Assembly: GCA_012728725.1 (NCBI GenBank)
Contig: JAAYEM010000030.1
Coordinates: 1-56,225, forward strand
Source of the DNA: Tissierellia bacterium
GTDB taxonomy: Bacteria > Bacillota > Clostridia > Tissierellales > Tepidimicrobiaceae
Direction of reading: 5' to 3'
Length of the DNA: 56,225 nucleotides
Shown piece by piece: positions 24,728-39,965 of this stretch. The translations under genes and the position numbers were made by a program. The notes below the pieces were generated by a model that saw only the letters and a program-made list of their open reading frames with translations, was not told the origin of the DNA and did not search any database. Positions within the stretch are counted from its first letter, which is position 1. Each line of letters opens with the position of its first letter.

Positions 24728-26410
24728 ATGAAAAGGACTAGTTCAAGATTAGGAGAGCTATTGCTCTATACTAATAAGATTACAGAAGAGCAACTGAATA
24801 GTGCCCTGGAGGAGCAGAAGGGGACAAACAAAAAAATAGGTGAAATTTTAACTGATAAAGGTTATGTCTCTGAAAAAGATATTGTTGAGGTTTTAGAGTT
24901 CCAATTAGGAATTCCCCATGTAGATTTGGATAAGTACACAATTAAACCAGATGTGGTTGCTCAAATTCCAGAAAATATTGCTAGGAGGTATGAATTAATA
25001 GCCATAGATATTCAAAATAATTTTCTTATAGTAGCCATGGCCGATCCTCTGAATATATATGCAATAGACGATGTAAGGATGTTTACAAAATATGAGATAC
25101 AGCCTGTTATAGCCACTAGGGAGAGTATTTTAAACAATATAGATAGGTATTATAGAAAAGAAAGTACAGAGAAGATGATAGAAGAGTTTACAAAACATTA
25201 TGGGGCTAACGAAGTATCCGATATAGAGGATGTGGAATTATCAGAGGTAAGCAGTGCACCTATAGTTAGATTGATAAATTCCATAATTGAAGAAGCTGTT
25301 GATATGAGGGCAAGTGATATACATATTGAACCCTATGTAGATGATATACGAATTAGATTTAGGATAGATGGGGATCTCCATGAAATTACTAGGTTGTTAA
25401 AGAGTAGCCACTCTGCCATAGTAACCAGGATTAAGATAATGGGTAGGATGAATATTGCAGAGAAGAGGATTCCCCAGGATGGCAGGGTTGAAACCAAGAT
25501 AAATGATAAAGAGATAGATATGCGTATTTCAACAATTCCTACCGTTTACGGAGAGAAGATAGTTTTAAGGCTTTTAGATAGAAGTAATTTCAAATTTTCA
25601 AAGGCTGAATTAGGATTTACTAAGGAAAACATGGAGCTATTTGACAAAATATTTAATCAACCCTATGGGATGATTCTAGTAACTGGGCCAACTGGTAGTG
25701 GTAAAACTACCACTTTATATGCCCTCCTTAAGGAATTAAATAGGATGGAGAAAAACATCATTACAATAGAGGATCCAGTAGAGTATAGATTAGAGGGGAT
25801 AAATCAAGTCCAAGTAAATCCTAAGGCAGGTCTGACCTTTGCCAGTGGATTAAGAGCTATTTTAAGACAGGATCCAGATATTATAATGGTAGGAGAGATA
25901 AGGGACTCGGAAACAGCAGAGATAGCCGTAAGGGCAGCTATTACAGGGCATTTAGTTCTTTCTACCCTTCATACCAATGACAGCCCTTCTGCCATAATAA
26001 GGTTAATAGACATGGGTGTAGAGCCCTATATGGTGTCTTCGGCTGTAATAGGAATAATCTCCCAAAGGCTGGTTAAGGAACTATGTCCTAATTGTAAGCA
26101 AGCCTATCTGGCTAGCTATTCAGAGAAAACTTTATTCGGATTAGACCCTGATGAACCTATTACCCTCTATAAGCCCAGAGGCTGTAATCTATGTAATAAA
26201 GGGTACAAGGGAAGAAAGGCTGTCCATGAAGTAATGGCAGTGGATGAGGGGTTAAGAAGGCTTATAAATAAGGAAGCCAATATAGATAGGTTGCGTGCTA
26301 GTGCTATTAAAGCAGGGATGACAAGCCTATTGGATAATGCAATTCAGTTAGCCCTAAAAGGAGAAACCACTGTGGAAGAAGTTTTAAAAGCAGGTTATAC
26401 ATTGGGTTAG
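24728..26410 (+). CDS. pilB: Type IV pilus assembly ATPase PilB
   Basis: A 560-residue GspE/PilB ATPase powering pilus extension. The N-terminal MshEN-type domain (about 1-150: LGELLLYTNKITEEQL, LGIPHVDLDKY) binds c-di-GMP in some homologues. The motor has Walker A GPTGSGKT (320-327), Walker B IIMVGEIRD (about 387-395), His box HLVLSTLHTND, and a zinc clamp CPNCKQ...CNLCNKGYKG near 453-489. It is first of the pilus gene run, 10 bases before pilT. Confidence 0.96.
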   Translation: MKRTSSRLGELLLYTNKITEEQLNSALEEQKGTNKKIGEILTDKGYVSEKDIVEVLEFQLGIPHVDLDKYTIKPDVVAQIPENIARRYELIAIDIQNNFLIVAMADPLNIYAIDDVRMFTKYEIQPVIATRESILNNIDRYYRKESTEKMIEEFTKHYGANEVSDIEDVELSEVSSAPIVRLINSIIEEAVDMRASDIHIEPYVDDIRIRFRIDGDLHEITRLLKSSHSAIVTRIKIMGRMNIAEKRIPQDGRVETKINDKEIDMRISTIPTVYGEKIVLRLLDRSNFKFSKAELGFTKENMELFDKIFNQPYGMILVTGPTGSGKTTTLYALLKELNRMEKNIITIEDPVEYRLEGINQVQVNPKAGLTFASGLRAILRQDPDIIMVGEIRDSETAEIAVRAAITGHLVLSTLHTNDSPSAIIRLIDMGVEPYMVSSAVIGIISQRLVKELCPNCKQAYLASYSEKTLFGLDPDEPITLYKPRGCNLCNKGYKGRKAVHEVMAVDEGLRRLINKEANIDRLRASAIKAGMTSLLDNAIQLALKGETTVEEVLKAGYTLG

Positions 26411-26420
26411 GAGGATTGAA

Positions 26421-27473
26421 GTGGATTTATTAGAATTGATTAAATATGCTACCCACAATAAGGCGTCGGATATACATATTACTGTGGGTATTCCCCCAGT
26501 TTTAAGAATAGATGGTTCACTGGTAAATTTTGGGGATTATATTTTAAGACCGGAGGATACCAAAGAATTGATTAAGCAAGTATTAGATGAAAGGCAAATG
26601 GCCCAGTTGGAGATGGATGGTGAAATAGATATATCCTTTTCAAGTCCAGGTGTTGGTCGTTTTCGTGTAAATGTATATAAGCAGAGGGGTAGCTTCGCCA
26701 TGGCCATTAGGATAATTCCCCTAAGGATCCCCACTATTGAAGAGCTGGGCCTACCTGCAGTAATTAAGGATATAGCAAGGCTACCTAGGGGCTTAATATT
26801 AGTAACAGGACCCACTGGCAGCGGGAAATCCACTACTTTAGCTGCTATGGTCAATCTGATAAACCAAGAGAGGAAATGCCATATATTAACTTTGGAGGAT
26901 CCTATAGAATATTTACATAAACATAATAAGAGTATAGTAAATCAAAGGGAGGTTGGCTCCGATACCAATAGTTTTTCCAATGCCTTAAGAGCTGCATTGA
27001 GGCAGGACCCAGATGTAATCCTAGTAGGAGAGATGAGGGATCTGGATACCATAAGTATAGCCCTTACAGCTGCTGAAACTGGCCATTTAGTATTGTCAAC
27101 CCTACATACAATAGGTGCAGCTAAGACCATAGATAGGATAATAGATGTTTTTCCTCCCCATCAACAACAGCAGATTAGGATTCAATTTTCCTCAGTAATC
27201 CAAGCCATTATATCTCAACAACTACTCCCTAAGGCCAATGGACGGGGAAGGGTGGCAGCCTTTGAAGTAATGATAGCCAATCCTGCTATTAGAAATTTAA
27301 TAAGGGAAGAAAAAATCCATCAAATAGATACTATTATCCAGACAAGTAAAAAACTGGGGATGCAGACCATGGATAATTCCCTATTGGAATTATATAATAA
27401 GGGCTTAATATCAAGGGAAACCCTATTGAATCAAGCTGTTAATTTAGACTATATCAAAAGGTATATTCTATAA
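26421..27473 (+). CDS. pilT: Pilus retraction ATPase PilT
   Basis: A 350-residue PilT ATPase for retraction: Walker A GPTGSGKS (130-137), Walker B VILVGEMRD (199-207) and the PilT-type AIRIIP and LSTLHTIGAAKTIDRIID motifs; the conserved C-terminal AIRNLIREEK is present. GTG start with AGGAGG upstream. PilT implies retractile pili (twitching, DNA uptake), not simple secretion pseudopili. Confidence 0.95.
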   Translation: MDLLELIKYATHNKASDIHITVGIPPVLRIDGSLVNFGDYILRPEDTKELIKQVLDERQMAQLEMDGEIDISFSSPGVGRFRVNVYKQRGSFAMAIRIIPLRIPTIEELGLPAVIKDIARLPRGLILVTGPTGSGKSTTLAAMVNLINQERKCHILTLEDPIEYLHKHNKSIVNQREVGSDTNSFSNALRAALRQDPDVILVGEMRDLDTISIALTAAETGHLVLSTLHTIGAAKTIDRIIDVFPPHQQQQIRIQFSSVIQAIISQQLLPKANGRGRVAAFEVMIANPAIRNLIREEKIHQIDTIIQTSKKLGMQTMDNSLLELYNKGLISRETLLNQAVNLDYIKRYIL

Positions 27474-27487
27474 TATGGGGTGATTTT

Positions 27488-28696
27488 GTGGCCATATACA
27501 AGTATAAGGCTATTTCAGAAAGGGGACAAGTATTGGAAGGATACCAGGAGGCCCAGTCGGAAGCAGAAGTGATTACAATATTAAAGAGTAATAATTATTA
27601 TCCAATAGTTATAGAGGAAGATAGGGGTAGCCATCTAAGGGAGGAATTGATTAGTAAAAGGATTACTAAAAAAGATTTGGCGGTATTTTGCAGGCAATTT
27701 TATACTATGTTGAATGCAGGCATTAGTATAATAAATAGTCTAGATATTTTAGAAAGGCAGACGGAAAACAGGACCATAAAAAGGGCTATATCAATTGTTT
27801 TAGAGGATGTGCAAAAAGGCTTCACCTTATCGGAGGGGATGAAAAAGCATGGCAAGGTATTTCCTCCCCTATTGGTAAATATGGTGGAAGCAGGGGAGGT
27901 AAGCGGTAATCTTGATGTATTGATGGAAAGGATGGCAATCCATTATGAAAAGGAGAATAAGATTGAGAACAAAATAAAAAACGCCCTTATATATCCAGTA
28001 GTACTCAGTATAGTTGCTTTAGGAGTTGTAATATTTTTGCTTACAGTAGTTATGCCTACTTTTATATCCATGTTTCAAACTAGTGGCTTAATACTACCTA
28101 CCCCTACTAGGATACTATTAACTATTAGCGATTGGTTAACTTTGTATTGGTATATATTTATTGGAATTATTTTACTATTTATAGTGGCATTAACCTTTAT
28201 AGGAAAAACTGAAAATGGAAGGCTTTTTTATGACACCCTTAAAATAAGGATTCCAGGAATAAGGAATATGAATATAAAGATAATTACTTCCAGATTTACC
28301 AGAACCCTTTCTACTTTATTGTCCAGCGGTATACCCTTATTACAAGCCTTGGATGTGGTAGGCAGGGTAGTAGGAAATAAGCTGGTGGAAAATCAGATTA
28401 AAAAGGCAGGGGAGGATATAAAAAAGGGGGTACCCATGTCCAGGACCATAAAGGATATGAATCTATTCCCCCCCATGGTAGATTCTATGATAAGGATAGG
28501 GGAGGAATCAGGAGCCCTAGATGATATCCTCTACAAAACTGCAGATTTCTATGATGAAGAAGTGGAAGCCTCCATGGAAAAGATAACCACCATGCTGGAA
28601 CCAGTATTGATAGTAATAATGGCATTAGTAATTGGATTTATAGTAATAGCTATGGCACTACCTATGTTTGATATGGTAGGCAATATAGAAATGTAG
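27488..28696 (+). CDS. pilC: Type IV pilus inner-membrane platform protein PilC
   Basis: A 402-residue T2SSF-family protein with two homologous cytoplasmic domains (KKDLAVFCRQFYTMLNAGI and TSRFTRTLSTLLSSGIPLLQ) and three membrane helices, the last near 375-395. It couples PilB/PilT to pilin movement. GTG start, 14 bases after pilT. Full length for the family. Confidence 0.94.
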   Translation: MAIYKYKAISERGQVLEGYQEAQSEAEVITILKSNNYYPIVIEEDRGSHLREELISKRITKKDLAVFCRQFYTMLNAGISIINSLDILERQTENRTIKRAISIVLEDVQKGFTLSEGMKKHGKVFPPLLVNMVEAGEVSGNLDVLMERMAIHYEKENKIENKIKNALIYPVVLSIVALGVVIFLLTVVMPTFISMFQTSGLILPTPTRILLTISDWLTLYWYIFIGIILLFIVALTFIGKTENGRLFYDTLKIRIPGIRNMNIKIITSRFTRTLSTLLSSGIPLLQALDVVGRVVGNKLVENQIKKAGEDIKKGVPMSRTIKDMNLFPPMVDSMIRIGEESGALDDILYKTADFYDEEVEASMEKITTMLEPVLIVIMALVIGFIVIAMALPMFDMVGNIEM

Positions 28697-28875: not shown

Positions 28876-29310
28876 ATGTTTAATTGGATGTCAAAGAAAA
28901 TAAAAAAGAATAATAAGGGATTTACTTTGGTGGAGTTGGTAGTTGTAATTGCCATATTGGGAATATTAGCTGCTATTGCAGTGCCAAGATTTACAGGCTC
29001 TAGAAAAAATGCCGCTGTTGCTGCCCATAATGCTAATGTAAGGACCCTTGAAAGTGCAGCCAATATGTATTTAGTGGATGGTGGAGAAGATACTACTTGG
29101 AATAAAGAATCTGTTAGTTGGAAAGATTACCTACAAGAATGGCCGGATATACCTGATTTGGTAAAAAATGATTTGAATATAACTAATGGTAACTATACTG
29201 TAGAATATACAGAATATACTGTAAAAATTGAAGATGGTGAAATAACTGTAAAACCATGGTATGTGGAATTAAAAAATGGAAAGATAGAAGAAAAAGTAGA
29301 AAAAAATTAA
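28876..29310 (+). CDS. pilA: Major type IV pilin PilA
   Basis: A 144-residue prepilin: a 15-residue leader ending KKNNKG, cut before F16, then FTLVELVVVIAILGILAAIA with the conserved Glu5 (E20). The body after the helix is short and acidic (KIEDGEITVKPWYVELKNGK). It is preceded by a 179-base gap and followed by a hairpin, as expected for separate high-level expression. Strong GGGGGAG ribosome site. Only this prepilin stands apart, so it is most likely the major subunit. Confidence 0.9.
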   Translation: MFNWMSKKIKKNNKGFTLVELVVVIAILGILAAIAVPRFTGSRKNAAVAAHNANVRTLESAANMYLVDGGEDTTWNKESVSWKDYLQEWPDIPDLVKNDLNITNGNYTVEYTEYTVKIEDGEITVKPWYVELKNGKIEEKVEKN

Positions 29311-29411: not shown

Positions 29412-30170
29412 ATGGCTATAATAATATTCCTACTAGGAATCACAATAGGTTCATTTTTAAATGTGTGCATTTATAGAATACCAAAGGGGGAAAGCCTAGT
29501 CTTTCCCAGTTCCCATTGTATAAAATGCAATACTCCTTTAAAATGGTACAATCTTATTCCCATAATAAGCTTTATATTACAAAAGGGCAGATGTAGATAC
29601 TGTAGGGAGGCTATCTCCCTCCAGTATCCAGTGCTGGAATTGTTAACTGGCATTATACTTACCATACTGTACTTCAATATTGGAATCAATATAGATTTCA
29701 TATACTATTTGTTCCTATTTAGTTTATTGATCATAATTACCTTTATCGATATAAAACATCAAATAATTCCCGATGGATTGATTTTATCAATCCTAATAGG
29801 GACAATTCTGTATAAAAGCATCCAATACCTATTATTTGATGTTCCCATCAATTTATTAAATGGACTAATAGGATTTATTATAAGCAGCCTCTTCTTCCTA
29901 ATCATAATAATAGTATCTAAAGGGGGAATGGGGGGAGGAGATTTAAAGTTAATTGGAGTGTTTGGTTTTATTCTGGGATTTCCTGAAATTATTTTAAATA
30001 TATTTTTATCCTTTATAATAGGTGGAATGGTTTCCATATTATTATTGGCTTTTAAAATTAAGGGCAGGAAGGATCCCATACCCTTTGGACCATTTATAAT
30101 ATTGGGATTTATTGTTACCCTCTTTTGGGGAACTTGTATTATTAGCTGGTATATTAATAGCTTATTTTAA
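29412..30170 (+). CDS. pilD: Prepilin peptidase PilD
   Basis: A 252-residue membrane aspartic protease that cleaves and N-methylates prepilins. C36, C39, C61 and C64 form the zinc-binding cytoplasmic loop of bifunctional enzymes. Catalytic aspartates are D113 in FIDIKHQIIPD and D177 in GGGDLKL. About seven to eight helices. Its substrates (pilA plus seven prepilin-like genes) flank it. Confidence 0.95.
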   Translation: MAIIIFLLGITIGSFLNVCIYRIPKGESLVFPSSHCIKCNTPLKWYNLIPIISFILQKGRCRYCREAISLQYPVLELLTGIILTILYFNIGINIDFIYYLFLFSLLIIITFIDIKHQIIPDGLILSILIGTILYKSIQYLLFDVPINLLNGLIGFIISSLFFLIIIIVSKGGMGGGDLKLIGVFGFILGFPEIILNIFLSFIIGGMVSILLLAFKIKGRKDPIPFGPFIILGFIVTLFWGTCIISWYINSLF

Positions 30171-30212: not shown

Positions 30213-31463
30213 ATGAAGGGCTACCACAATAAAGGTTTTATAATGATTACCACATCTTTAATATTGGTAGTTTTGTTGGTATTGTCAGCTTTTGTTCTTA
30301 CCTTCATGCTTAATGAAAGGCATCAATCAATACAAGAGGAAAATAAAATGGCAGCCTATTATATAGCTAGGGCCGGGGCAGAGGCTACTGAAAAGGCTAT
30401 ATTCAATATGGCTGATGGGGAAATAGAAAAACTTATGGAAAAATTAAACAAATCCCCTAAACCTTTAAAGGTTAATTTAGACAATCTAGATTTTGAAAAT
30501 GGTGACTTAGAAGTTGAATTGGAGAAGGTCGAAAGTAGTGATAATATAAGGATAGTATCGAAAGGAAGGGCTTTTCTAGGTAAGGATAAAAAGGGCAATG
30601 ATTCATATGTAGAAGATATAGTAAGGAAGGTAATTGTAGGGGAGAGGGTTGCTGATAAAATAGAATTGAATTATGCCATATTTGCTGCTAGCAAACTGAT
30701 AATTAGTGGCAATCCAAATGTAGAAGGGGATATAGGTATAGGAAAGAATGGTGAGAAGGTGATATCTGGAAAAATTAATTTAAAAAATGGAAGAATCCGT
30801 GAAGGTATTGAAGTAGCTTATCCTTTAATGGATTTTCCTGATATACCATCTGTAGATAAAGTGGATGGGAGTGCTAGTGTTAAATCCATAGGAGAAAGTG
30901 TTGAATTTAGCCAGGGATTGGTTACTTTCGATAATGTGGAAATAGATACAATAAAAGGGGATATAGATATTATTGTTAATAGCATAAGCTTTAACAAGGA
31001 TTTGATCATAAAAGGTTCTGGCAAGGTTAGATTATTTGTAAAGAATCAGATCTATTTCAATGATAATAGTAGTAAGATTAATAAAAATGGAGATCCCAAT
31101 AAACTTGAAATATATTATTATGGTAAAGGAATAAATATTTCTACCAATTGTGATATTAGGGCCAATATATTTTTAAAAGATGCTGGGGTTAATATAAGCG
31201 GCAATACTATAACAGGGAGTGTATTTTGTAATGGAGTAAATTCTATGAATATATCTGGAAATGTAAATAATGGTTTTATATATGCTCCCAGATCCCAAAT
31301 AAATATAAGTGGTAATGGTAAATTTTCCAATGGTATAGTTGGAAATGAAATAATTATTAGCGGTCAGTGTGACATTACATTTAGAAAAATGGAATTGCCT
31401 ACAGATTTGTTTGAACCAAATTATTCCGATAAAATTAAAATTATATCTAGTTATTTTGAATAG
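30213..31463 (+). CDS. GspK/PilX-like minor pilin with beta-solenoid domain (set 1)
   Basis: A 416-residue protein with a prepilin-like leader HNKG then FIMITTSLILVVLLVLSAF, lacking Glu5 as in GspK/PilX. ENKMAAYYIARAGAEAT is typical of the PilX N-terminal region. Residues about 160-400 carry recurring ISGN-type turns (ISGNPN, ISGKIN, ISTNCD, ISGNTI, ISGNVN, ISGNGK, ISGQCD), the pattern of a beta-solenoid (DUF7305/bactofilin-like). It may cap the pilus tip; the specific partner is unknown. Confidence 0.72.
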   Translation: MKGYHNKGFIMITTSLILVVLLVLSAFVLTFMLNERHQSIQEENKMAAYYIARAGAEATEKAIFNMADGEIEKLMEKLNKSPKPLKVNLDNLDFENGDLEVELEKVESSDNIRIVSKGRAFLGKDKKGNDSYVEDIVRKVIVGERVADKIELNYAIFAASKLIISGNPNVEGDIGIGKNGEKVISGKINLKNGRIREGIEVAYPLMDFPDIPSVDKVDGSASVKSIGESVEFSQGLVTFDNVEIDTIKGDIDIIVNSISFNKDLIIKGSGKVRLFVKNQIYFNDNSSKINKNGDPNKLEIYYYGKGINISTNCDIRANIFLKDAGVNISGNTITGSVFCNGVNSMNISGNVNNGFIYAPRSQINISGNGKFSNGIVGNEIIISGQCDITFRKMELPTDLFEPNYSDKIKIISSYFE

Positions 31464-32419: not shown

Positions 32420-33487
32420 TTGAATCTACCATCTTTTTTAAGAAGAAAAATCCTTTCAATAGACTTAGGAGCATATGAAATAAAGGTTGTAGAAGGAAAG
32501 GAAACCAATAAGGGTATTATAGTGTATAAGCACTTTGCCATACCTACACCCAGAGGAGCCTATGATGATGGGCTAATAGTGGACAAGGAATTACTCCATT
32601 ATGTAATAGATGAGGAGTTTAAAAAGAAGGGAATAAGAACTAAAGATGCCTATTTGACCATAAACAGTTCTCATATAATTACCAGGGAGATTATAATTCC
32701 AAAGGTGGAAGAGGACCAAATTGATGGGCTTATTAAATATCAGTTAGAAGACTATATTCCCATGAATCAAGAAAATTATATAGTCCAGTTTAAAAAAATA
32801 GGCTCCATATATGAAGAGGGAGTGGAAAAACTTAATATATTACTTATTGCCATTCCAAAAGAAATGGTAGAAGGCCATTATAAACTATTGAAGGATTTGG
32901 ACTTAAACCCTCTGGTATTGGACTATCAGCCTAATTCTATTGCCAAACTTATCAAGTATAATCAACTGATAAATGAAAACTATCCTACTGAGGATTTAAT
33001 ATTTTCTGCCATCGATATTGGTTATGATACTACTAAAATATCCATAATAAAAAATGGCCTAATACTGGTAAGCAGGACTATTGAAATAGGCGGAAAATAC
33101 ATAGATCAAAATATTTTAAATTTTTTTGAACTGGATCAATTGCAATTGGAAGAAAAGAAAAGGGAGATAGGAAACATAAATAGATTAGAGGACAATGATT
33201 CAGATGAGGATGGAATTAAAAGGATTATCCTAAATTCCTTCCAATCCTTAAGTGAAAGGATAGAGGTGGTATTTAGATATTTTTTAACCAGGGAGATAGG
33301 TAATGAGATAAATATAATTCTATTATGTGGGGGAAATGCAAATTATGATGGGATAGATAGTTTTTTCTCCAATTATTTTAATATACCCTCAATAAAATTG
33401 GAATCCTTTAATAATGTAGTTTTTGATGGAGAATTGGCTAGATACATTCACCCAATAGGTTCAATTATAAGGATGGCAGAGGTGTAA
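32420..33487 (+). CDS. pilM: Type IV pilus actin-like assembly protein PilM
   Basis: A 355-residue actin/FtsA-fold protein: ILSIDLGAYEIKVVEG (phosphate 1), SAIDIGYDTTKISII (phosphate 2), ILLCGGNANYDG (adenosine site). PilM binds the cytoplasmic tail of PilN and links to the motors. TTG start with AGGAGG 10 bases upstream. Two bases before pilN. Confidence 0.92.
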   Translation: MNLPSFLRRKILSIDLGAYEIKVVEGKETNKGIIVYKHFAIPTPRGAYDDGLIVDKELLHYVIDEEFKKKGIRTKDAYLTINSSHIITREIIIPKVEEDQIDGLIKYQLEDYIPMNQENYIVQFKKIGSIYEEGVEKLNILLIAIPKEMVEGHYKLLKDLDLNPLVLDYQPNSIAKLIKYNQLINENYPTEDLIFSAIDIGYDTTKISIIKNGLILVSRTIEIGGKYIDQNILNFFELDQLQLEEKKREIGNINRLEDNDSDEDGIKRIILNSFQSLSERIEVVFRYFLTREIGNEINIILLCGGNANYDGIDSFFSNYFNIPSIKLESFNNVVFDGELARYIHPIGSIIRMAEV

Positions 33488-33489
33488 AG

Positions 33490-34083
33490 ATGAAGGACTT
33501 AAATTTTTTTGAATCTTATTTGGATAAAAGGGAGTTTAGCATAAATAAGGAGTTTATCTATTATACCCTATCTATTTTACTTATACTATCTATTTTGATT
33601 TATTCCATATATAATCAGATTAAAATTAGGATTATTTCAAAGGATATATATAGATTAAGGGTAACTGTGGAGGATGAAAGGACAAATAAAAAGGTGGATC
33701 AAGTATCCAATAAGAAGGAAGAACTAGATGAATTGAAGGATTTTGTAGAAAAAATAAAACTATTAGATAATACCCTTGAGGAAGAAAGTGTTATAGATAA
33801 TAGATTGCTGGAAGCTATCCAATACAGTTTGCCTAATGAAATTTTCCTTACATCGATTAGCATATATACGGAATATATAGAAATAATTGGAGTGGCAGAG
33901 GATAAATGGTCTATAGCAGACTTGGTGGGCAATTTAGGGAGAATTGAAGAATTTAAAGAGGTATTTATATCTAATATATCCAAAGGGGACATTTACTATA
34001 GTTTTGTTATCAATATAGGCCTAAAGGATGTGAATATGGATGGAGTTAATGGAGAAGATGAGGTTTATGAGGAAACTGACTAG
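33490..34083 (+). CDS. pilN: Type IV pilus assembly protein PilN
   Basis: A 197-residue bitopic protein: a short cytoplasmic N-terminus LNFFESYLDK (PilM-binding; the Gram-negative motif is INLLP), helix 23-42, a coiled coil (45-95) and a ferredoxin-like extracellular domain (PNEIFLTSISIYTEYIEIIG). Its 3' end overlaps pilO by 44 bases, so the two are translationally linked. Confidence 0.85.
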   Translation: MKDLNFFESYLDKREFSINKEFIYYTLSILLILSILIYSIYNQIKIRIISKDIYRLRVTVEDERTNKKVDQVSNKKEELDELKDFVEKIKLLDNTLEEESVIDNRLLEAIQYSLPNEIFLTSISIYTEYIEIIGVAEDKWSIADLVGNLGRIEEFKEVFISNISKGDIYYSFVINIGLKDVNMDGVNGEDEVYEETD

Positions 34084-35473
34084 GAGGGAAAGGAATCTAT
34101 TAATATTATTAATGGTAATTATTATCATTTGGTTAGCCTTTAGATTTGTTATTACTCCTCAGCACGATAGATTGCAGGATTTAATTGGGGAAAAAAGTAA
34201 ATATGATGAAAGGATATCCTACATGAATTCTATATTGATCCAGGAAGGCAGTATAGAGAAGGAATGGGATAGTTTACATAGGGAAAAGGATAGGATTATC
34301 AGTAAATATTTTTCCAATTTGGATCAATCTGAAATAATATACCTTCTAAATGAGCTATTGGGGGATGAAAACATAGAGGTATTGGATATTATATTTTCCA
34401 GACCAAGTGAGGAAAAGGTAGGGGACCTACTAGTTGATGCCATGGAGATTACCATCCCCTATAGGGCTAAGTATGAAGGAATAGTTGAGACAATAAGGAG
34501 TTTGACCACCAGTCCAAAAAGGATTCTAGTAACTGGTTTAACTATGGATAATCAAGAGGGGGATATGATAGCTGGTAATATATATTTAAAGGCATATGGA
34601 TTGAAGGGGGCTGGCCATGAAGAGGATAAATTGTTTATATCCCAGTTATCCGATAAGGAAGTATCTAATCCCTTTAAACCCTTTGATAACTATGTTGAAA
34701 GCCGGGATGATATTGAGATAGAAGGGGATAATTTTTATGAAGAAGGCACCAACCATATAGCTCAGCATCTTCCTGAATATAATAGGAGCGATGAAAATCA
34801 GCTAGCAGAAGGGGTAGATGAGTATAAGAGGGAATTACTGGAGGATTTTGGAAGTGCTTATTTTAACTTTATCCCTTCCAGCAGTATGGTAGAAGGAAAT
34901 GTTTCAAGATCCTATATTGGGAAATCAGGTAGAAATTCTATAAGGGTCGAATATAATATATTGGCATTAGGGGAGGAAAATAGGGCCTATATCGATCTTT
35001 CCCATAGAAATATACTGCTTAAATATCCTCCCTCCACTATAGGGTTGTGGGTACGTTCCTATGCCTATTCTCCTATAACATTGGGAATCAGGCTAAAGGG
35101 ACAGGCAGGAGAATTAATAGATATGGAACTAATTAAGGGGATAAATTGGACAGGCTGGCAGTATGTAGAGGCACCTCCTCCATCAGACCTATCCCTATAT
35201 CCATTATACATAGACAAAATATACTTAGAGGTAGCGTACAATAGGGAGGATTATGGAGTTTTATTACTGGATAAATTGGAAGCCAATTATCCTAAAGGGA
35301 ACCAGTCAAAAGAGGATTTTACCTTTTATATAGTAGAAAAGGGGGATAGTTTAGATAAAATAAGTCTTAAATTTTATGGAACTACTAAAAAGAAAGATAT
35401 TATTATGAAGCATAATGAAATAAATGACGATAAAGATATTAGGGAAGGGAAGATATTGGTAATACCAAGATAG
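34040..35473 (+). CDS. pilO: PilO-like protein fused to a beta-sandwich and LysM domain
   Basis: A 477-residue protein, more than twice the usual PilO length. Residues 1-190 are PilO-like: helix near 18-37, coiled coil to 90 and a ferredoxin-like fold with IPYRAKYEGIVETIRSL. A variable acidic linker (190-265) leads to a jelly-roll-like domain (270-415) with GRNSIRVEYN, STIGLWVRSYAYS and INWTGWQYVE. The end (428-476) is a LysM: FYIVEKGDSLDKISLKFYG through LVIPR. LysM binds GlcNAc in peptidoglycan. The start is taken at 34040; closer ATGs lack better ribosome sites. Confidence 0.8.
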   Translation: MELMEKMRFMRKLTRRERNLLILLMVIIIIWLAFRFVITPQHDRLQDLIGEKSKYDERISYMNSILIQEGSIEKEWDSLHREKDRIISKYFSNLDQSEIIYLLNELLGDENIEVLDIIFSRPSEEKVGDLLVDAMEITIPYRAKYEGIVETIRSLTTSPKRILVTGLTMDNQEGDMIAGNIYLKAYGLKGAGHEEDKLFISQLSDKEVSNPFKPFDNYVESRDDIEIEGDNFYEEGTNHIAQHLPEYNRSDENQLAEGVDEYKRELLEDFGSAYFNFIPSSSMVEGNVSRSYIGKSGRNSIRVEYNILALGEENRAYIDLSHRNILLKYPPSTIGLWVRSYAYSPITLGIRLKGQAGELIDMELIKGINWTGWQYVEAPPPSDLSLYPLYIDKIYLEVAYNREDYGVLLLDKLEANYPKGNQSKEDFTFYIVEKGDSLDKISLKFYGTTKKKDIIMKHNEINDDKDIREGKILVIPR

Positions 35474-35487
35474 GGAAGGTGTTGGCT

Positions 35488-37443
35488 TTGAGAAAAATAT
35501 TCAATAAATTACCAATATTTATATTTATTATAGTAATTGTTGGTAATTGTTCAATAGCCTTTGCCAATGATAGGGATAGATATATAGAGGCAAGGGAATT
35601 TGGAGAGCTGTTTGGTTATAGTGATGGATATTTAGAGGGAATAAAAAATTATTCCACTGGTTTAAAACTATCTTACTATCAAATTAGGCCATCTAGAAAT
35701 CAAATAACTAAGGAATATGAGGACTATCTCCAAGACCAAGATACTAGATACATATCCTATTTTATATCCGCCTATTATACTGGATTTGAGAAGGGCTATA
35801 ATGATGGAATTAAAGAAGATGGGGACTTATCTACAGCCAAGGACAATTATGCTAGTTGGTTAGGATCCACTTTGGGGGAGATATTTGGTTATAGGGATTT
35901 CTATAATAATAGAAGGGCTAATGGTACTAATGCTTTACCTTCCAATAAGAACCTGATAGAAATGTTCAATTTAAATGGATTCACCTCCCAATATAGACTA
36001 GAATTCTTAAGGAAATTCAAAGAGGGTTTTCTAGAGGGTTATCAAGAAGGGTATAGGAGGGCAAATTTTGAACCTATAAGGGTTTCCTATGAAGAAGGAA
36101 TTAGGGATGGAGAATATTTTGGCCATTTGCTTGGAAAAGTTAATGGGGCTAAGGATTATTTCAATAATATGTCTAGGGATTATAAAAGGGATCTGCCATC
36201 TGACAAGAGCATTGAAAGGGAATTTTCCCTATCCAGGGATGGAAAAGAGTATAGGGATGGTTTTATAATTGGTTTTAAAAGGACCTATGAAGAGAGCTAT
36301 AATGAAACTTTTAGGGCCATGAATGTGGACATGCATTTAAGGGCCTATGAATTGGGTTATTTAGATGGAAAAGATGCTGGAATAAATAAGGGGGAAATAC
36401 TTGCTACCATTGACTTTTACCTAAAGGATACCAACGATTGGAGAAGACACCTTCCTAACCAGGAGGATATTATAAAAGAATACAATTTAGCCTTAGAATC
36501 CAATAGGTATAGGGAGGGGTTTATAGTTGGGTATATAGAGGGATTATCCCAAGGCTATATGGCAAAATTCCAAGACTTACATTGGGAGGAGATAAGGATT
36601 AAATCCAAAGCTGAAAAGATTCCCATATCCGGTGGAGAGGTTAAAAGTTTAGATAATATACTTATACTAAATATAGATAAGGGAACTTATTATGCACCGG
36701 TAATAGTAGCTATAGATATGATTCCAGATCCTATAAATATGGCTGATGACAGATATATCAAGGCCTCAGACTTTTACAGGGTGGAAATTATAAATCAATT
36801 GGGAGAAGCAAATGATGAAAAAACCTTAGAACTGCAATTTGAATACTATGGGGACTACAAGGGAGGAATTTATAAATTAGTGGATGGAAAATGGCTATAC
36901 ATACCATCCATAATAGAAGAGGGTTTTATAAAAGCCAAGGTTAAGCCTAGTTCCTTTAAGGATGGTCCAAATATATACTGTGTTTTAATAGATAAAGAGG
37001 CTAAACTACTTAGGGATACAAGGAACCATTGGGCCAGGGATGAAATACTGGCCTTTCAGAGGAGGAATATAATTTCAGGCTATTCCGATAATAGGTTTAG
37101 GCCAGATAAAGAAATTACTAAGGGGGAGTTTTTCACTATAATCAGCAAGGTATATAATTGGCAATTGCCTGGGGATAAAAAGGCTAATATCTATAAGAGG
37201 GTAATGGACTATGCTTTAAATAATGGGATTATTGAAAAGCCCTTTAAGGGTAATGAATGGGTAACCTATAGAGAAGTAGATGCAATAATGAGGAAAATTA
37301 CACATTCTAAATCTTTTGCTTGGAGTAATATTGCATCTAAATTGCTGTATGAAAAACTGCACAGAAGTAGAAGTTTGGATTCTCATAATAATCCTATAAC
37401 TAGGGCTGAAGCGGTTTATATGTTATATATATTAAATGAATAA
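35488..37443 (+). CDS. Secreted S-layer homology protein with four GxxxG-rich repeats
   Basis: A 651-residue exported protein (signal cut after AFA-26). Residues ~35-361 hold four imperfect repeats; each has a GxxxGxxxG-like helix, then a conserved R/LPSxK-xxI-x-x-x-Y/F block, then YRxGFxxGYxEGY (for example FKEGFLEGYQEGY). A beta domain (382-502) follows, then an SLH motif (NHWARDEI to GYSDNRFRPDKEITKGEF, about 513-560) and two degenerate SLH repeats ending NPITRAEAVYML. SLH domains bind pyruvylated wall polymers. I use TTG at 35488, 8 bases after GGGAAGG. Lying between pilO and minor pilins, it is probably part of the pilus apparatus; function unknown. Confidence 0.75.
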   Translation: MRKIFNKLPIFIFIIVIVGNCSIAFANDRDRYIEAREFGELFGYSDGYLEGIKNYSTGLKLSYYQIRPSRNQITKEYEDYLQDQDTRYISYFISAYYTGFEKGYNDGIKEDGDLSTAKDNYASWLGSTLGEIFGYRDFYNNRRANGTNALPSNKNLIEMFNLNGFTSQYRLEFLRKFKEGFLEGYQEGYRRANFEPIRVSYEEGIRDGEYFGHLLGKVNGAKDYFNNMSRDYKRDLPSDKSIEREFSLSRDGKEYRDGFIIGFKRTYEESYNETFRAMNVDMHLRAYELGYLDGKDAGINKGEILATIDFYLKDTNDWRRHLPNQEDIIKEYNLALESNRYREGFIVGYIEGLSQGYMAKFQDLHWEEIRIKSKAEKIPISGGEVKSLDNILILNIDKGTYYAPVIVAIDMIPDPINMADDRYIKASDFYRVEIINQLGEANDEKTLELQFEYYGDYKGGIYKLVDGKWLYIPSIIEEGFIKAKVKPSSFKDGPNIYCVLIDKEAKLLRDTRNHWARDEILAFQRRNIISGYSDNRFRPDKEITKGEFFTIISKVYNWQLPGDKKANIYKRVMDYALNNGIIEKPFKGNEWVTYREVDAIMRKITHSKSFAWSNIASKLLYEKLHRSRSLDSHNNPITRAEAVYMLYILNE

Positions 37444-38945: not shown

Positions 38946-39965
38946 GTGGGTAATGATGGATTTTCGTCTATTATGGCCCTTTTGGTAGCTACCCTTGTTT
39001 TGGTTATTGCTGTGTTTATTATATTTTTAGCTAGTATGGAACACCAAATAATTTATTCTAATGCAGACAATCTTCAGGCCTATTATCTATCAGAGGGCAA
39101 AATATTCATGGCTTTATATAAGGATGAATATTATAATGATCAGCTTTTACCTAGGCTGGAAACCTATATAAAATACGGTAGATTGTCACCTTTTTACGAT
39201 CCCTATATACGTTTAAAGGAAGAGGATTTAATTGAAGGGGATAAATTTAATACTATTACTACAAGATTCTACTATAAAAATAATAGGAATTATGTAGACT
39301 TGATAACTAGCAGTAATTATAGGGGAATTAACAGTGAGGTAGTAGCAAGAATTATTATACTTAATGACCTATTTGAATTGGGTCATTCCATAATATCAAG
39401 AGAAAACATAAGTGGGGACCAGATGGAAAAATATGAATACTTTTTTAGCCATATTGAAGAGAATATAAAAATTCCAGCCACTGGAAATGATATTTTAGGG
39501 ATGGAAGTTAATGATTATGATATGATAAATATATTAAGGGACACTAATAAAAAAATGAATATTGAATTTTATAGAAATGGCATGGAAGGGCCTGTAAAAA
39601 GTCAGGTATTAACGAAGGATGAAATATTTTTATTGGCTAAGAACAATTCTTCCAAACCCGTTAGGCTGACTATTTTATCAGAGGAAAAGGCGGATAATCT
39701 ATTATTAAAGGGTATTATCTATATAGAAGGGGATTTAGAAATACTTAATGATTTTGAATTCCATGGTATATTGATACTTAATGGTGGCCATCTATATATA
39801 GCCCCTTTGGTTAATTTTGAGGTAGAGGGAATAGTATTTATGAAGGATTACATACAGGATGATAGTACAATCCATGCCAGGTATAATTTTGATAAGATTA
39901 TAAAGTATGGAAATTATTTGCCAATGTTCATATATCCCAAAATAGAATTAATAAAGAGTAATTAG
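38946..39965 (+). CDS. GspK/PilX-like minor pilin (set 2)
   Basis: A 339-residue protein from a GTG start (TATGGGGTG upstream). The N-terminus MGNDG then FSSIMALLVATLVLVIAVFI resembles a prepilin without Glu5, and SNADNLQAYYLSEGKIFMAL matches the K/PilX region. The C-terminal ~120 residues have short beta turns (GIIYIEGDLEILNDFEFHG, ILNGGHLYI) like a small beta-solenoid. It closes the second minor-pilin set. Confidence 0.7.
   Translation: MGNDGFSSIMALLVATLVLVIAVFIIFLASMEHQIIYSNADNLQAYYLSEGKIFMALYKDEYYNDQLLPRLETYIKYGRLSPFYDPYIRLKEEDLIEGDKFNTITTRFYYKNNRNYVDLITSSNYRGINSEVVARIIILNDLFELGHSIISRENISGDQMEKYEYFFSHIEENIKIPATGNDILGMEVNDYDMINILRDTNKKMNIEFYRNGMEGPVKSQVLTKDEIFLLAKNNSSKPVRLTILSEEKADNLLLKGIIYIEGDLEILNDFEFHGILILNGGHLYIAPLVNFEVEGIVFMKDYIQDDSTIHARYNFDKIIKYGNYLPMFIYPKIELIKSN

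Follow-up and report, generated by a model that had tools for sequence, protein, structure and literature searches.

The gene at positions 34040-35473 of the window, the stretch of 56,225 nucleotides of Tissierellia bacterium DNA that was analyzed here, encodes a PilO core fused to a beta-sandwich and a LysM domain. Quite probably, the product is PilO from the type IVa pilus machine of a monoderm, lengthened by an arm outside the cytoplasm that would anchor it to the wall. It is an open question for monoderms by what means type IV pili pass through a thick cell wall, and pull against it, without an outer-membrane secretin (PMC6916266). Monoderm PilO proteins are much larger than PilN and resemble PilO at their N-terminus only, and it has been proposed that they may aid in peptidoglycan crossing or wall anchoring, a proposal described as 'entirely speculative at this stage' (Pelicic 2019, PMC6916266). 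In the following sections, the domains of the window PilO, its neighbors and its relatives are described, and the possible roles of the extension are discussed.

One open reading frame with three domains

The pilO-like gene is an uninterrupted frame from the ATG at 34040 to the stop at 35473 (Table 1). The exact start is ambiguous: there is a 44-base overlap with pilN, and 34040-34067 contains several ATGs in frame. A sequence-only reading of this DNA had described a fusion of PilO, a beta-sandwich and a LysM domain, with limits at residues 1-190, 270-415 and 428-476. The fusion is borne out by the single intact ORF of 477 aa, by Pfam and by an AlphaFold2 model (input of 34 orthologues, mean pLDDT of 80), and the limits were correct to approximately 10 residues. 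HMM and structure prediction of residues 190-477, which had been proposed as a check, recovered both the beta-sandwich (262-418) and the LysM domain. The same reading had named a missing LysM fold and a frameshift splitting two genes as findings that would speak against it; the LysM fold is present, and the frame is unbroken. Because the three-domain layout recurs in dozens of genomes, a chance match or run-together genes are excluded, and together with the single ORF this recurrence also rules out a frameshift, two merged genes or an assembly join.

Table 1. Features of the pilus locus in the window (positions in nucleotides; residues are those of the PilO protein).
Feature	Position	Strand	Basis and remarks
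pilB, extension ATPase	24728..26410	+	MshEN domain; 622 bits, just under equivalog cut-off
pilT, retraction ATPase	26421..27473	+	TIGR01420, 500 bits (cut-off 319)
pilC, platform protein	27488..28696	+	Pfam T2SSF, E=8.5e-66
Major pilin candidate	28876..29310	+	N_methyl, E=8.5e-11; TIGR02532
pilD, prepilin peptidase	29412..30170	+	Pfam A24_N, Peptidase_A24
pilM	32420..33487	+	Pfam PF11104, E=3.3e-36
pilN	33490..34083	+	Pfam PF05137, E=1.5e-10
pilO-like gene	34040..35473	+	477 aa; PilO core, beta-sandwich and LysM; single ORF, Pfam, AlphaFold2
Membrane helix running into coiled coil	34082..34306	+	Residues 15-89; helix in model; hydrophobic 20-38 in sequence
PilO ferredoxin-like core	34322..34606	+	Residues 95-189 (about 96-187 in model); VIA-align to solved PilO
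Acidic disordered linker	34616..34816	+	Residues 193-259 (~65 residues); pLDDT mostly <50
CBM11/FlaA-like beta-sandwich	34823..35293	+	Residues 262-418; AlphaFold2 and fold matches
LysM domain	35327..35467	+	Residues 430-476; Pfam PF01476; beta-alpha-alpha-beta in model
SLH wall protein, likely functional partner	35479..37443	+	Pfam SLH, E=4.9e-12; model; fold matches

Up to E=1, the window protein has no match to the Pfam PilO family PF04350, and the matches of orthologues to it stay below the cut-off (e.g., 18.6 bits versus 22 for L044). The identity as PilO therefore rests on fold and gene position, both of which support the assignment made in the sequence-only reading. In the AlphaFold2 model, the core aligns with Pseudomonas aeruginosa PilO 2rjz (VIA-align Z 13.1, rmsd 1.9, 91 residues) and with 5uvr (Z 11.6), and the gene lies directly 3' of pilM and then pilN, an order that is kept in relatives. 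Weak Pfam T2SSM matches brought up the type II secretion protein GspM as an alternative identity; the PilM and PilN neighbors, PilT and the matches of the core to solved PilO structures favor PilO. Like P. aeruginosa PilO, the window protein combines a membrane helix, a coiled coil and a ferredoxin-like core, whereas the P. aeruginosa protein has about 200 residues, carries no extension and works with PilP and a secretin.

A complete type IVa operon without a detected secretin

The type IVa pilus set is complete in one locus, comprising PilB, PilT, PilC, PilD, PilM, PilN, PilO and type IV pilins. In addition to its N-terminal MshEN domain, PilB has a c-di-GMP-binding motif (NF053729, above cut-off), which suggests that pilus extension may be controlled by cyclic di-GMP. 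The operon also encodes a protein with DUF7305 (30213-31463), which is probably a minor pilin of modular build that ends in a beta domain, and the product of 38946-39965, which has no Pfam match, resembles it.

No PilQ secretin was found above the cut-off in 20 genomes of the family (controls positive in 6 of 14), and no Omp85 protein scored above the cut-off in these 20 genomes either, with positive controls. This agrees with the absence of an outer membrane assumed in the sequence-only reading. That reading had further suggested that the PilO extension replaces anchoring by PilP and PilQ; the secretin part of this suggestion fits the absence of a secretin from the family, and the search for PilP, in which neither the genomes nor the controls gave a match, is uninformative.

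The LysM domain and the beta-sandwich

The LysM domain matches Pfam PF01476 with E=7.4e-7 (29.5 bits versus a cut-off of 20.9), and its secondary structure in the model, with strands at residues 427-431 and 472-476 enclosing helices at 438-446 and 452-459, is beta-alpha-alpha-beta. A whole-genome LysM scan found it at the same coordinates. With an in-house LysM profile, LysM-keeping orthologues score 38-95 bits, and a double-LysM protein scores 47-48 bits per LysM.

Residues 262-418 adopt a CBM-superfamily beta-sandwich fold in the model, so that both C-terminal domains named in the sequence-only reading are confirmed, one by the AlphaFold2 fold and the other by Pfam. In fold, the sandwich comes closest to FlaA1 (9cyn_B), a sheath protein of the spirochaete flagellar filament (Z 17.2), followed by the CBM11 structures 6r3m (Z 13.7) and 1v0a (Z 13.1); over the CBM families 11, 27, 22, 30 and 4, the Z-scores are 11-14. 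The term 'carbohydrate-binding-like' is a fold label, as FlaA1, which is not known as a CBM, matches better, and the ligand could equally be a protein. A homologous sandwich (about 31% identity) is also present in a 956-aa phosphodiester glycosidase (NAGPA) encoded on another contig of the same genome (C63, L039:4370-7237), and sandwich-bearing NAGPA proteins are widespread in the class.

Conservation and variation among relatives

The three-domain PilO has been observed at pilMN in dozens of genomes, at about 26-60% identity. Among 199 sampled genomes of the order, 108 match the protein somewhere, many of the matches being the glycosidase sandwich, and several dozen encode the full-length three-domain PilO. 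A contig scan with the single protein returned two loci only, one of which is a Tissierellia MAG with 58% identity.

The PilO tree comprises 83 rows across the class. Sandwich and LysM occur together in 47 rows, the sandwich only in 4 and LysM only in 2, while 7 rows have no extension, 20 another extension, 1 SLH domains and 2 a double LysM (one protein); these loci were picked by similarity to the window protein, and the counts are thus not population frequencies. The survey of Clostridia PilO proteins for LysM fusions, which had been proposed along with the sequence-only reading, accordingly found the sandwich-LysM combination in 47/83 rows. The C-terminal layout requires 13 changes on this tree. 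LysM is kept in nearly all of the ~50 sandwich-bearing relatives, and the sandwich residues G372, W373, Y387, P388 and D411 are invariant across relatives. The variants include a double LysM (L070/L105), LysM without the sandwich (L043 and L081), PilO without LysM (L040, L041, L046 and L048) and PilO without any extension (L042, L049, L073-L075, L077 and L078).

Some loci show further deviations. In L045:4703-6340, LysM is followed by a further tail of ~80 residues. The PilO of L034:501-1802 has neither LysM nor an SLH neighbor; a loss of LysM through a frame error was rejected, as the LysM profile is silent in all three frames of the gene's strand. In genome G023 (L033), the PilO LysM is kept and the SLH gene is lost. 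In PilO proteins of the Clostridium type (L088-L103, e.g., L089:4149-5456), the C-terminus holds another conserved, beta-rich domain of ~140 residues, without a Pfam name and with a motif around SSDLPTVILGK ... YADN ... GKYYYKYKT. Kinship between this domain and the sandwich was considered and rejected, as no profile similarity was found (probability 0.1%).

The SLH neighbor and PilO-SLH fusions

The gene following pilO encodes an SLH protein composed of a signal peptide, long glycine-rich helices in the N-terminal half, a ZU5-like beta domain and three SLH repeats. In a structure comparison, its model matches SLH and ZU5 folds (best E 1.2e-3). The genome contains csaB (309.8 bits), whose product synthesizes the SLH ligand. 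An orthologue of the SLH protein lies next to the PilO gene in most relatives. It is adjacent or close by in 45/49 scored loci in which PilO has LysM versus 1/29 without LysM, and in 46/51 loci with the sandwich versus 0/27 without it. After correction for kinship, three independent pairs remain for LysM (sign test p 0.25), and this association is suggestive, not significant. The sandwich association is not significant after this correction either, because both the sandwich and the SLH gene are passed on in blocks. As the SLH neighbor was scored only together with the sandwich, in lineages inherited as blocks, the sandwich may be a docking site for the SLH protein.

In genome G503, PilO (L072:940-2115) has no sandwich and no LysM and ends in SLH repeats (SLH 48.5 bits). 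A second SLH fusion is found outside the class in G848 (L140:1513-2706; SLH 47.7 bits), with 35% identity to L072 over the full length, and because of this second fusion an assembly error is excluded. The SLH tail of L072 scores 84-130 bits against orthologues of the window's SLH protein where these are complete, versus at most 62 bits against other SLH proteins, including those of the window genome. A separate orthologue of the window's SLH protein was not found in G503. From this comparison of one fusion (L072), the tail is likely akin to the SLH neighbor in the window and would represent a 'Rosetta stone' for a PilO-SLH partnership.

Proposed wall anchoring and alternative roles

In the proposed mechanism, the N-terminal helix of PilO would cross the membrane, and the core and PilN would form a pair like that of diderm machines. 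Via the flexible linker of ~65 residues, the sandwich and LysM would reach into the wall, where LysM would hold the glycan strands of peptidoglycan. The SLH neighbor would hold the pyruvylated secondary wall polymer and join the PilO complex. Together, the PilO arm and the SLH protein would secure the PilMNO ring within the wall, so that PilT-driven retraction would have a fixed point to pull on. They would probably also mark or line the wall passage, and they may take over the job that is performed by PilP, the secretin and TsaP in diderms.

Anchoring is favored by the replacement of the wall-binding end of PilO by SLH in two distant genomes, by the doubling of LysM in another and by the retraction ATPase PilT encoded in the operon. 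Several relatives without LysM or without any extension argue against anchoring via PilO as a universal need, and LysM domains are also able to bind different glycans or to act in localisation only. The tethering to peptidoglycan put forward in the sequence-only reading thus keeps its conditional form, with added support from the SLH replacement, the LysM doubling and the SLH gene next door. A further-reaching version can be offered tentatively, in which the sandwich-LysM arm and the SLH protein would form a wall-embedded ring that anchors the machine and passes the filament. Such a ring would be the monoderm equivalent of PilP, secretin and TsaP, with interchangeable ends (LysM, double LysM or SLH).

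It is rather unlikely that LysM acts as a positioning tag, recruiting the pilus base to nascent or septal peptidoglycan or to the pole and bearing no load. A lone LysM is usually a weak binder, which would suit such a tag. FimV, a LysM protein of diderm pili on which this idea is modeled, acts in localisation and assembly (PMC5285504, PMC12918733). However, the linker, the sandwich and the separate SLH partner fit structural anchoring better, and LysM is replaced in the fusions by SLH triplets, which bind wall polymer over the whole surface.

The chances are smaller still that the filament passes the thick wall in a sleeve or gate built from the sandwich and the SLH protein, with LysM orienting only and the PilO arm serving as a conduit instead of an anchor. 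The top fold match of the sandwich to the flagellar sheath protein FlaA1 (Z 17.2), the long helices of the SLH protein and its occurrence beside the sandwich (46/51 versus 0/27) point in this direction, and translocation is one of the two guesses in PMC6916266. The CBM matches are nearly equal, though (Z 13.7), a common fold does not imply a common function, and the association falls below significance after kinship correction. It is highly improbable that the domains at the C-terminus are decorative or degenerate fusions that the pilus tolerates without consequence: the C-termini of monoderm PilO are highly variable (13 changes on the tree) and absent in some, but the sandwich and LysM stay intact at about 26-60% identity with the five invariant residues, and the replacement ends are again wall-binding domains.

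Relation to known systems

PilO of Streptococcus sanguinis (formerly PilH) resembles the window PilO in its N-terminal PilO similarity, its large C-terminal extension and the lack of a secretin (PMC6916266). No domain of that extension is named in PMC6916266, whereas the window PilO has a CBM11/FlaA-like sandwich, LysM and an SLH neighbor. In Litorilinea aerophila (Chloroflexota), a PilO with a C-terminal LysM has been described and peptidoglycan anchoring proposed (PMC12488501, 2025; PMC13319060, 2026). This LysM fusion also lies beside pilN, but there it is found with archaellum genes, pilM, pilP and pilQ are absent, and only three such Chloroflexota genomes were found; the window PilO, in contrast, belongs to a complete type IVa operon with pilM, pilT and pilins, has the additional sandwich and occurs in dozens of genomes. 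TsaP, which according to the summary in PMC13319060 acts for the secretin, and FimV are LysM proteins that tie parts of diderm pili to peptidoglycan, like the window PilO; they are separate proteins and not PilO. Anchoring would be alike in principle to that of the MotB-type stator, with OmpA-like domains and a motor that are unrelated to PilO. In this flagellar stator, a membrane motor part has its own peptidoglycan-binding end.

In the open-access papers searched, no account was found of the PilO sandwich, the SLH partner or PilO-SLH fusions, nor of PilO-LysM in type IVa operons of this order. The extended C-terminus of monoderm PilO was already known (PMC6916266), as was PilO-LysM in Litorilinea; the novelty therefore lies in the identity of the domains, and the new elements are the sandwich, the SLH partner and PilO fused to SLH. 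The domain findings support the standing guess that PilO might anchor the machinery to the wall (PMC6916266). The large PilO C-terminus, formerly a matter of guesswork, is now resolved into named wall-binding modules with a likely SLH partner, and the natural swaps of LysM for SLH open the anchoring hypothesis to direct tests.
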